Origin: Haliclystus octoradiatus
Lineage: Eukaryota; Cnidaria; Staurozoa; Stauromedusae; Haliclystidae
Length of the DNA: 64,000 nucleotides
Assembly: GCA_916610825.1 (NCBI GenBank)
Contig: OU744453.1
Coordinates: forward strand, 12,977,826-13,041,825
Reading direction: 5' to 3'
Position numbers and translations under genes: made by a program. Shown here piece by piece: positions 11,237 through 27,567 of the stretch (position 1 is the first letter of the stretch; the number at the start of each line of letters is the position of its first letter). Below the pieces are notes generated by a model. That model was given only the letters and a program-made list of their open reading frames with translations. It did no database searches and had not been told where the DNA came from.

Positions 11237-11264
11237 CTAGCAATGAGTGTAGTCCATTATGGAC
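11237..11264 (-). other. Helitron-like 3' terminus
   Basis: CTAG at 11237-11240, an 11-nt spacer, then the palindrome GTCCATTATGGAC at 11252-11264, able to form a 5-6 bp hairpin on the minus strand upstream of CTAG. The same order appears at 14275, 21337 and 61656. At 17280 and 24343 the terminal C of CTAG is missing. Confidence 0.6.
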
Positions 11265-11926
11265 CTTCTATGATAAAACTTTCAGATCACTTATAATTAA
11301 ACAATTGACTAAGCTGACTATCGCTGTATAATACGGAGTATGAACTCTGGAGGAGAACACGAGACACAATACGTATTGAAACGATGTAGCATTAATCAAT
11401 ACATCTTAATCATTCCTTTAATAAAAATTTAATTTATTTCACATCAATTGAGTCGATTGAAATGTATAATTTAACGTAGCTATCTCTACATAGAAAAACT
11501 TTATTTTATGTGCTGAAAGGAAACCAGAACACATTAATTATTATGAATTACAAATATTCAGTCAAATTTCGAAATATGAAACTATCCATAAAAAATCATT
11601 TCAAATCCGATCCGATCCGAAGACCTAAAATATTAACCCGAATCTGACCCGATACGATCAAATCGCGTTCGGTTCGGATTGATAAATCTTCATTGCAATA
11701 CAAACAACACTAATGTGGTGTTCACAAAATAACGCCGTCAAGGTGAGGCCGGTCAAACTCGTGGCATCGCATGTAATATATTCAATATTAAATTAATTTA
11801 GCTTCGACAAGACACATGGTCCACTAATTTCTGTTATTAACATGATCAAACGATATCTTTTGTTAATTAACAATGATTTACTGCTTCATATTAAAAAAAA
11901 TAAGAAAAATTGTTGATAAAAATTTT

Positions 11927-11998
11927 CCGAATGGCGGATTTGAACTGACGACCCTCATATTGTGATGCCAGAGCATTAACCAATGAGCCACTGCCTTA
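11927..11998 (-). other. tRNA-like segment in B unit 1
   Basis: Reverse complement shows an A-box-like TGGCTCATTGG and a B-box match GTTCAAATC separated by 34 nt, the spacing expected of a tRNA-type internal Pol III promoter. The T-stem and D-stem do not pair properly, so this is a decayed tRNA-derived (SINE-like) sequence and not a working tRNA gene. Confidence 0.55.
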
Positions 11999-12832
11999 CT
12001 TATTATTATATACGCTTTGACTGACGTCATCAACAAACCTACTGCTTCGACAACGTATTATTGAACAAGGCCGACACACGCGCGTGTAATTGAAAATCAA
12101 ATTATATATATAATCTGAAAATATTATGATATGATAGTATATGAGCCTATATATTTTTAATCTTTGCAATCTCAGCAAGTAGGACTGTGATTTTCATGGC
12201 AGTCTATCAAAATACTAAGAGTTCGTTGAAAATAAAATTTTAAAAGTAAACAAAAGATATGAAAAGTTGACCTCATAGTGCTTCTTGTTATCAAATTTTC
12301 CAGAATAATAGCATCAACATTCTTTTAAAATGAAATAAAATTCTATAATAAATCGCTATACTAATTCGATATTGATATTATGTTACATCTTGTTGTCAAT
12401 ATTTCTACGCGCTATTTATAATACATTACAGATGTCGAATGAAAGAAAAGATGATTATGAATAAATTAATTATTTTGATAGAAAAACGAAAACAACTCAT
12501 TTTGCCAGATTCGTGATATGCATTTATTCAGAATTTATTGAAACTGACGCGATGGTTTATAGAGTGGAAATGTTTAGTGCAGCTTCAAAGATATAAAATA
12601 CCACAGCCGATGGTAATATTTAAATGCTCATGTTATGATGTCTGACGAAAAGGATAATTTACTATGTAGAAAATGAATCTACTTTACCATGCATTTGATC
12701 ACGATATGAAATGATCATTTTTGTCAGAATTATTTCGAATAAAAGACAATCTTTATTTTATTCTTATCGGGCGTACATTCTCCTTCGATAAAATATGGTT
12801 GTTAACTTATTATTGATTGGTGTATTAACTCA

Positions 12833-13010
12833 GAGAACCCGCTATTATGTATTTAAATGTTGTTCGGAGATTATGCCGCTCGTATAGTTTTTATTTGGAT
12901 CTCATTTGGAAAATGGTAAGTTGTATTTTAATAAATATTGTTTGCTATGATCGATTATTTCATGCAACCTTTTCGCTTTTTATTTTTGTAACACAAGGTT
13001 TGTTACACTC
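12833..13010 (+). promoter_or_regulatory. Conserved block with TATTTAAAT, ATG|GTAAG donor-like site and stem-loop
   Basis: Nearly invariant in all six B copies. It contains CCGCTATTATGTATTTAAAT (TATA-like), a stretch ending in ATG followed at once by GTAAG (ATG at 12913-12915), then about 65 nt later ATTTTTG (12982-12988), resembling an Sm-protein site, and the hairpin TGTAACA-caaggtt-TGTTACA (12987-13007). Counterpart ATGs lie at 15955, 18955, 23003, 26026 and 63325. This could be a promoter with a first exon and 5' splice site, or a spliced-leader/snRNA-like unit. The Sm-like site overlaps the stem by two bases, which weakens the second reading. Confidence 0.35.
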
Positions 13011-24300: not shown

Positions 24301-24342
24301 ATAAGTCGCGGACAGACACAGAAATATCGAAATATAGAAATA
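21337..24342 (-). mobile_element. Family B unit 4
   Basis: A 3006-bp unit with intact CTAG terminus (CTAGCTATGAG). Distinct small changes include loss of CAGAGAACC before the conserved CGCTATTATG block (about 22929) and an additional CCG in AACGCCGCCGTC (about 21834). Confidence 0.6.
22028..22100 (-). other. tRNA-like segment in B unit 4
   Basis: Minus strand: A-box region TGGCTAATTGG, B box GTTCAAATC. Confidence 0.5.
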
Positions 24343-25031
24343 TAGCAATGAGTGTAGTCCATTATGGACCTTCTATGATAAAACTTTCAGATCACTTATA
24401 ATTAAACAATCGACTAAGGTTTCTATCGCTGTATAATACGGAGTATGAACTCTGGAGAAGAACATGAAAGACAATACGCATTGAAACGATGTAGCATTAA
24501 TCAATACATCTTAATCATTCCTTTAATAAAAATTTAATTTATTTCACATCAATTGAGTCGATTGAAATGTATAATTTAACGTAGCTTTGTCTACATAGAA
24601 AAACTTTATTTTATGTGTTGAAAGAAAGCCAGAACACATTAATTATTATAAATTACAAATACTCAGTCAAATTTCGAAATCGGAAACTTTCCATAAAAAA
24701 TCACTTCAAATCCGATCCGATCCGAAGACCTAAAATATTAACCCGAATCTGACCCGACACGATCGGATCGCGTTCGGTTCGAATTCATAAATCTTTATTG
24801 CAATATATACAACACTAATGTGGTGTTCACAAAATAACGCCGTCAAGGTGTGGCCGGTCAAACTCGTGGCATTGCATGCAATATATTCAGTATTAAATTA
24901 ATTTAGCTTCGACAAGACACATGGTCCACTAATTTCTGTTATTAACATGATCAAACGATATCCTTTGTTAATTAACAATGATTTACTGCTTCATATTAAA
25001 AAAAAAATCAGAAAAATCGTTGATAAAAATT

Positions 25032-25105
25032 GCCGAATGGCGGATTTGAACTTACGACCCTGATATTGTATTACCAGAGCGTTAACCAATGAGCCAACCC
25101 CTTAC
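25032..25105 (-). other. tRNA-like segment in B unit 5
   Basis: Minus strand: A box TTGGCTCATTGG, B box GTTCAAATC. Confidence 0.5.
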
Positions 25106-27370
25106 TTACTGTTGTACTCGCTTTGACTGTACTAATCAACAAACCTGCTGCTTCGACAACATATTACTGAACAAGGCGACAGCGCGTGTATTGATTTCAA
25201 ACTATATATATAATCTGAAAATATTATGATATGATAGTATATGAGCCTATATATTTTTGATCTTTGCAATCTCAGCAAGTAGGCCTGTGATTTTCATGGC
25301 AGTCTATCAAAATACTAAGAGTTCGTTGAAAATAAAATTTTAAAAGTAAACAAAAGATGTGAAAAGTTGACCTCATAGTGCTTCTTGTTATCAAATTTTC
25401 CATAATAATAGCATCAACATTCTTTTAAAAGGAAATAGAATTCTATAATAAATCGCTATACAAATTCGATATTGATATTATGTTACATCTTGTAGTCAAT
25501 ACTTCTACGCGCTATTTATAATACATTACAGATGTCGAATGAAAGAAAAGATGATTATGAAAAAATAAATTATTTTGATAGAAAAACGAAAACAACTCAT
25601 TCCGGAACTCATTTTGCCAGATTCGTGATATGCATATTTATTCAGAATTTATTGAAACGGACGCGATGGTTTATAGAGTGGAAATGTCTAGTGCAGCTTC
25701 AAAGATATAAATACCACAGCCGATGGTAATATTTAAATGCTCATGTTATGATGTCTGACGAAAAGGATAATTTACTATGTAGAAAATGAATCTACTTTAC
25801 CATGCATTTGATCACGATATGAAATGATCATTTTTGTCAGAATTATTTCGAATAAAAGACAATATTTATTTTATTCTTATCGGGCGTACATTCTCCTTCG
25901 ATAAACTATGGTTGTTAACTTATTATTGATTGGTGTATTAACTCAGACAACCCGCTATTATGTATTTAAATGTTGTTCGGAGATTATGCCGCTCGTATAG
26001 TTTTTATTTGGATCTCATTTGGAAAATGGTAAGATGTATTTTAATAAATATTGTTTGCTATGATCGATTTTCTCATGCAACCTTTTCGCTTTTTATTTTT
26101 GTAACACAAGGTTTGTTACACTCATCCAAACTGTATTAACTATTTAAAAATGTTTTTAAATTATGTTTTTGTGCTTTTAAATTCAAAGCAAAATTTTTGA
26201 ACGCTGAAAATATTATAATTATTATTATTTATCACAAATCATACGCTCAATTCAATTTAACTTTGTTAAATTTGATATACCTGAAATTAATGTTATTAAA
26301 TGTTGATCAAAGATAATAACAAGACATCGCTATTTTTATCCTCGAAACTGTAGTAACATACTGTGTCTTATTCGTATAGCAAGTCAAAAAAATGAAATTT
26401 TAATTTTAATCGATGCCTATAATTCCTTGGTTAATTATGGAAGCAAAATCTGAAAATAAAAGCCTTGCTGCTCAAAACCAAATGATTCGTTTTTTTATAT
26501 TAAATAATAAATTATAGAAATACTTTTGTGCACTGCTTTGATTAATTCTAAACTCTATAATTTTAGACTGTAGACACATAATCTCTTCGAACTTTGAATA
26601 TTTTTCGAATTAGTCGAACGCCAACGTCATTTTGAAAATTCTTGCAAGTTAATTTGTTTTTATGCCCCGCGATAGATTATTCATTTCAAAACAGATTGTT
26701 TGCTCAGTGTTCTCACAAATTATATTTCAAAATAGCCTTTTTAAAAGTGAAATGTTTTGTATCTCGATTTTGAGAAAAGTAATGAACGGCATTTTGTTTC
26801 ATTAATAAATTAAATTAAGACCTAAAGTCTCTTTAATTTCATAGCGTTTGTGCCGCGCTATATGTATTGCTGATATCAACACTACATGAAATAGGTCTAC
26901 GTTTCTTTGATTTCAAAACATATTTTGTCTGGCCTAGTTATACTGGTAATTCAATGTAACTCAGTATTTCGTATTGTTTTAATTATCATAAAACTGATTC
27001 AGTTTTAAGTTTCACTTGTTCAAACAATTTACACGCAGCTTTTAAATTCAAAGCAAAATATTTTTGTTCTGGGGATTTCAATTTGACTTCGATTTGGCTG
27101 CCCGCTAGATTATCGACCTATGAAATTTTTCAAAATCTCTGAATTTTTTAATGCAAGGATATCAAATAAAATATCTGATGAAGTATATTATTTTAAAACA
27201 ACGTCATAGACCCATACTTTTCATACAACAAATTTGTTACTGTACACGGTTATCTCGACACAAATGTTTGCATAATTTCCCGACAACGGATTATCCGTAT
27301 TATATCGCCAGTAAGACGTACATAAGTCGCGGACAGACACAGAAATATCGAAATATCGAAATATAGAAAT

Positions 27371-27567
27371 ATAGAAATATTGTGATATATAAACAGACAG
27401 TATTATGTATATAAGTGATAGAAATATTGTGATATATAAACAGACAGTATTATTAATATAAGTAGATAGAAATATAGAAATATTGTGATATATAAACAGA
27501 CAGTATTATGTATATAAGTGATAGAAATAGAAATATTGTGATATATAAACAGACAGTATTATTAATA
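27371..27567. repeat. Short tandem repeats at the array end
   Basis: GATATATAAACAGACAGTATT occurs at 27384, 27431, 27487 and 27540 (spacing 47, 56, 53), separated by GAAATA-type filler. One copy of the same motif lies at the right end of unit 2 (about 17253), showing it belongs to the element and expanded here. Confidence 0.8.

Follow-up and report, generated by a model that had tools for sequence, protein, structure and literature searches.

Tandem Helitrons and the array of family B

Helitrons in head-to-tail order have been described from bats, silkworm and plants (as cited in PMC5876387, PMC4067079 and PMC2267711). Such tandem copies were ascribed to a bypass of termination or cited for rolling-circle transposition (PMC4067079, PMC5876387), one maize pair was read as consecutive insertions (PMC2267711), and nested Helitrons with multiple termini were proposed for maize (PMC3288121). 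Self-insertion is already described in a few cases: it was proposed, with multiple 5' termini, for some FoHeli elements of Fusarium, and a triple element of Metarhizium was left between self-insertion and rolling-circle replication (PMC5148889). A partial literature search, with subscription papers mostly outside its reach, yielded no report of self-insertion as the main source of arrays. Here we describe a head-to-tail array of an element of about 3 kb, named family B, in a window of 64,000 nucleotides from the staurozoan Haliclystus octoradiatus (GCA_916610825.1, contig OU744453.1; C10:12977826-13041825).

Coordinates refer to the plus strand of the window, the Helitron sense is the minus strand, and genome-wide searches covered 262 Mb in 33 contigs. 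Five units follow each other without spacer from 11237 to 27567, with the starts that an earlier note on this DNA had given (Table 1), and are 94.7-97.1 % identical pairwise. That note had explained the array by replication reading through the terminator, an origin not borne out by the analysis: the junctions mostly cut the tail of the neighbour, the remainders are stacked on the right, and neighbours are not more alike than copies on different contigs. Very probably the array consists of family B copies inserted serially into the 5' tails of older copies and mobilised, presumably, by a Helitron encoding Rep and PIF1 helicase (Rep-Hel element). Family B shares about 60 nt of its 3' end and the 5' terminal region with this presumed mobiliser and inserts between A and T without target duplication. 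The TA-rich, partly microsatellite 5' tail would itself be a frequent target, with new copies entering A^T sites inside an existing tail, at the loci read usually in the same orientation. Each insertion would split the tail into a fragment next to the body, which stays on the left, and a terminal remainder displaced to the right; repeated events would produce a spacerless head-to-tail array and an edge stack of truncated 5' ends that records the nesting. Apart from this serial insertion into its own 5' terminus, an unusual habit, family B is an ordinary Helitron family.

Like the FoHeli elements and the Metarhizium triple, family B combines self-insertion near the 5' end with multiple 5' termini; it differs from these few cases in about 225 signature termini, exact tail rejoining in tested pairs and canonical ends. 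The tandem Helitrons of bats, silkworm and plants are head-to-tail as here, whereas the junctions of family B lie mostly inside the 5' tail and its units look independently inserted.

Tail junctions, displaced remainders and relatedness of units

Tails were read between GACACAG, the end of the body, and the following terminus, in the window and in fetched loci, among them twenty 9.7-kb stretches around copies similar to unit 1. Intact 5' tails measured 68-85 nt in the copies read, except for 57 nt in L020, and internal units usually lacked the last part. The cuts fell mostly at one of three places, termed class a (GAAATA|TAGAAATA or TTGTG), class b (GTGATA|TATAAACAG) and class c (TTATTAATA or TTATGTATA|TAAGT). 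The missing pieces follow the last unit's complete tail at the right edge of the array, and their order is nested. Joining the left fragment with its remainder restored an exact intact tail in 12 of 15 pairs (16+16 nt or the full shorter piece); these pairs were chosen by hand from decoded arrays, without junctions lacking remainders, and the set does not include window unit 1, L028 and a second junction of class b in C1:26720646. None of 126 cross-class joins matched an intact tail. Removal of a supposed target duplication before joining gave no match for 1-5 nt, one for 6 nt and five for 8 nt, the microsatellite period. A same-class remainder accompanied 11 of the 13 innermost class a or b junctions with a visible 5' end (a hand count that skipped short TAAGTGA-type pieces and took L016 and C1_15765802 as one), and the single copies L011, L020, L022 and L024 had one 5' end each and no remainder (0/4). 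At the right edge of C2:2703214 two TAAGTAGA pieces lie beyond the first remainder; a left flank cut at ...TTATTAATA was expected for this locus before fetching, although not written down beforehand, and was seen in L070. Three further left-flank predictions were noted, and two of the places were found with GWRATA, which is consistent with the predicted class a and does not separate classes a and b. As a separate observation, L019 (7463-7503) contains an inverted pair of family B copies that abut at their 5' ends.

An alignment of 35 units, taken from the window and the 20 loci, gave a mean identity of 0.961 for the 24 pairs within arrays and of 0.966 for the 571 pairs between arrays, and a fraction of 0.951 of label shuffles reached the observed within-array value, rising to 0.9875 without L012. 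The nearest relative stood in the same array for 4 of 24 units at a chance expectation of 1.4, and two of these four represent the duplication in L012. This test is supportive rather than decisive, since selecting the loci for their likeness to unit 1 favours similarity between arrays. Unequal crossing-over, which would amplify one insertion into a satellite-like array, finds an example in L012 (C11:12975700-12985400), where units 2 and 3 are 99.9 % identical, have the same internal deletion and are spaced by about 2777 bp. The other 14 adjacent pairs were 94.7-97.5 % identical, junction positions vary inside one array, and the displaced remainders match the junctions; as a general source of the arrays, crossing-over is thus highly improbable.

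Genome-wide, the exact 19-nt 3' terminus of family B occurred 673 times, in 669 cases with A in front, and a 28-nt version with up to two mismatches 828 times (backwards control, 0). Tail-junction signatures preceded 225 of the 673 termini, namely GWRATA 164, a motif that can also arise two bases past a 5' end (AAGTGATA, L031), and TTATKWATA 61. Neither signature was present at the 14 termini with non-B left flanks in the fetched loci (hand count). By an estimate from copy number and tail length, the tails of relatives amount to well under 0.1 % of the genome. About a third of the termini lying inside tails is a very large excess, because intact tails are only 68-85 nt long. Target choice or survival may each explain this excess; the 5' end of family B may draw insertions to itself, and the family offers many built-in empty sites for the study of target choice in Helitrons.

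The counts bear on rolling-circle read-through, in which the 3' terminator is bypassed and a multimer of one element is inserted in a single event. Head-to-tail order without spacer would be expected of it, and tandem arrays elsewhere are cited in its support (PMC5876387, PMC4067079). In such a multimer, nearly identical units should meet at CTAG|TC joins. Of 673 termini, 27 had the end-to-end form GA|CTAG, against 225 with a tail-junction signature, and the end-to-end junction also results when a copy inserts at the A^T made by a 5' end together with its flank. Within-array identity was not raised: units of the same array mostly differ by 2.5-5.3 % and have their nearest relatives mostly elsewhere. 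Together with the several 5' ends stacked at the array edge, this leaves read-through a very small probability. An architecture cited for terminator-bypassing replication is here better explained by serial self-insertion, and a simple test separates the origins: the presence of displaced 5' remainders, and the comparison of neighbours with distant copies. We give even weight to the wider proposition that the 5' terminus is a self-made landing pad and the arrays are ordered insertion records; if it holds, some published tandem Helitrons credited to rolling-circle multimers may be nested self-insertions.

Several observations weigh against serial self-insertion. Three of the 15 joins were inexact (L012, C1:26720646, C2:4702265), with variant tails. 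Remainders were missing at two of the 13 innermost a/b junctions (L014, L021), for window unit 2, for the first junction of L018 and for the class c junctions of L015 and L025; C1:26720646 has one junction without remainder, yet more remainders than junctions. The third noted left-flank prediction was not found in the GWRATA or TTATKWATA lists. The choice of the 20 loci by likeness to unit 1 inflates the similarity between arrays, and the near-identical units with a shared deletion in L012 indicate that local duplication also happens. The hairpin of family B is weak (5 bp, z -1.57), and the Rep-Hel element is known in pieces. Finally, the outermost 5' end of the array, at 27567, is short by 8 nt and followed by TTTTTA, which also stands before the left edge of the array.

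The surplus of remainders, together with tails carrying several 5' ends and extra short TAAGTGA repeats, could reflect pre-formed composites of several units or 5' ends that transposed whole, the array structure being partly inherited; composites with multiple 5' termini have been proposed in Fusarium (PMC5148889). Where testable, the remainder classes fit the junctions of their own array, and each of the four single copies has a single end. We consider such composites an unlikely source, though a better candidate than read-through or crossing-over.

Helitron termini and the Rep/PIF1-helicase relative

The evidence supports family B as a high-copy non-autonomous canonical Helitron. This class is indicated by 5' ends of A|TC and 3' ends of CTAG|T, a hairpin placed 11 nt before the end, the absence of a duplication at nested sites and a Rep-PIF1 partner with matching ends. 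The earlier note had proposed it from a minus-strand palindrome followed by 11 nt and CTAG or CTA, with T next at the outer edge, and these features were recovered: three window units end in CTAG and two in CTA (17280, 24343), the array terminus reads CTAG|T, and its outer left flank is A|CTAG. The palindrome GTCCATWATGGAC, with up to one mismatch, occurred six times in the window, at the five unit ends and at the terminus at 61656, where shuffles expect 0.06. In the fetched loci the 3' terminus likewise consisted of palindrome, 11 nt and CTAG, nearly always preceded by A, the exceptions being termini without the C and one variant. Most right ends on the outer side had ...AAGTGA|T or ...AAGTAGA|T, corresponding to A|TC in Helitron sense. 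Among 41 distinct 5' ends, counted without the duplicate loci L001-L008, L034 and L035, T followed in 38; the other three were one direct CTAG join and two A. At nested sites, termini and tail joins agree with insertion at A^T without target duplication.

As also described in the earlier note, the outer 5' end of the window array is not a clean TC. The outermost tail ends ...TATTATTAATA|TTTTTATTCC at 27567 because the last tail remainder is without its terminal 8 nt; most other copies read, and one Rep-Hel copy, start with TC. The loss falls exactly on the class c insertion point, and a further insertion may formerly have been there.

With the non-autonomous families of canonical Helitrons (Helitron1) family B has in common the A|TC start, the CTAG|T end, the hairpin 11 nt before the end, nested sites without target duplication and a Rep-PIF1 element with matching ends. 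Unlike in those families, the 5' tail is microsatellite-like and a frequent target for further copies. A short palindrome near the 3' end and microsatellites in some copies recall Helentrons, HINE and DINE-1, but these elements use TT as insertion site and carry subterminal inverted repeats (PMC4067079). Assignment to the Helentron/HINE class was dropped on the A^T target and the TC and CTAG ends; subterminal inverted repeats and an endonuclease were not searched for.

A presumed autonomous relative with HUH Rep, PIF1 helicase and common ends, for which the earlier note had recommended a search, was found through domain matches and comparison of ends. The Helitron Rep N-terminal domain (PF14214) had 54 matches genome-wide, eight of which (L050-L057) represent a single element, with 99.2-99.9 % identity to L053 over the aligned parts (partial alignments for L050 and L056). 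Its Rep pieces match PF14214, the PIF1 helicase lies 3.39 kb from the Rep start in all eight copies and 3.65 kb in a diverged ninth, and the last helicase stretch contains LYVALSR. The first-fetched Rep loci, which comprised Rep and 1.5 kb on each side only, had no similarity to the array, and no family B end was found in the first 1.4 kb past the helicase frame; the end lies much further on. In L017 a second element with a B-like 3' end is cut into a family B tail. Its 3' end agrees with that of family B in 53 of 62 aligned columns over 60 nt (86 %); the palindrome region contains an additional G, and past this stretch there is little similarity. Another part of L017, further along, matches the 3' flank of the Rep copy on C7 at 99.6 % identity. 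A 39-nt pattern from this 3' end occurred at 45 places (10 exact; control, 0). All eight near-identical Rep copies have the B-like terminus in the right orientation 11,461-11,473 nt from the Rep start, a distance first taken from the C8 copy, itself one of the eight; in the diverged copy (L059) it lies at 11,754 nt. Two exact places (C2:12120733, C2:36365783) do not adjoin any listed Rep. The palindrome of the Rep-Hel element, AGGTCCATAATGGACCT, is longer than that of family B. The 39-nt pattern was met with one or two mismatches at 35 places (one being the ninth Rep copy), for example GTTGGTCCATAATGGACC; these related termini point to further families with a common 3' end.

At the other end, the copies on C2 and C7 have 5' sequence of family B some 8 kb upstream of Rep. 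In the C2 copy an internal 40-mer of family B lies 1.46 kb inside this 5' end, and no family B sequence was present where a separate copy would end; the B-like 5' part was therefore taken as belonging to the Rep-Hel element. The C7 copy, the one read at its 5' end, starts A|TCTACTTATATT / A|TCTACTTATATTAATAATACTG exactly like family B units, and its 85-nt tail is identical, letter for letter, to that of the single copy L024. From the 5' start to Rep there are 8,356 nt on C7 and 8,080 on C2, and from the C7 start to its own 3' terminus 19,826 nt, so that the element, known from pieces and only partially read between 5' end and Rep, would measure 19.8 kb if continuous. The shared ends suggest that the Rep-Hel element mobilises family B, presumably by supplying its proteins.

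Two further features of the Rep-Hel element were observed. Between helicase and 3' end, a 202-aa open frame (L017 5689-6294, minus strand) with a weak match to the ING N-terminal domain (E 1.3e-5) is possibly an extra or captured gene. A repeat of about 300 bp lies in the gap between two Rep exon pieces (L053 2183-2476), with two more copies, about 80 % alike, in the 3' region (L069 488-750 and 1366-1501, the latter truncated where L069 ends); the repeat is possibly intron-forming.

Features and setting of the array

Table 1 Features of the family B array and its surroundings in the window
Feature	Position	Strand	Remark
Unit 1, family B non-autonomous Helitron (supported)	11237..14274	-	5' tail cut by unit 2 at GAAATA|CTAG
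Array 3' terminus	11237..11264	-	hairpin GTCCATAATGGAC, 11 nt, CTAG|T
Unit 2	14275..17279	-	tail cut at TATTATGTA|TAGC; unit 3 is one base short at its 3' terminus
Unit 3, with insert of about 1 kb	17280..21336	-	tail cut by unit 4 at GAAATA|CTAG
Separate insert within unit 3, about 1 kb	19961..20960	.	inverted ends match (AATGACCAGCAGCCTTTG)
Unit 4	21337..24342	-	tail cut by unit 5 at GAAATA|TAGC
Unit 5	24343..27418	-	own 5' tail 27343-27418 complete, end ...AAGTGA|T (minus strand: TC)
Displaced remainder of unit 4's 5' tail	27419..27466	-	join with left fragment of unit 4 matches intact tail exactly
Displaced remainder of unit 3's 5' tail	27467..27521	-	join exact
Last displaced tail remainder	27522..27567	-	putatively of unit 1, paired by class alone; without terminal 8 nt
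Further family B 3' terminus	61656..64000	-	A|CTAG flank; known from its terminus

Unit 3 is about 1 kb longer than the others because of the separate insert, which looks like a non-autonomous terminal inverted repeat transposon, apart from the mechanism of the array. The array interrupts spacer DNA of U5 small nuclear RNA (snRNA) genes, about 14 bp from a U5 3' end. Twenty-nine U5 matches lie in the window between 2928 and 39206, all on the minus strand and in tandem with a unit of about 650 bp. The place matching the left edge of the array is uninterrupted in 26 U5 repeats, most reading ...TTTTTTTA and then TTC, with small variants.

Unit 1 had no match to Rfam at E up to 1, and a plasmid search with 2764 of its bases found nothing. 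A stretch at about 11935-12000, presumably tRNA-like as judged by eye, was not confirmed: ARAGORN gave no tRNA in the window. Reverse transcriptase or RNase H domains of retroelements are encoded in open frames at 148-687, 49287-50102 and 59214-59675.

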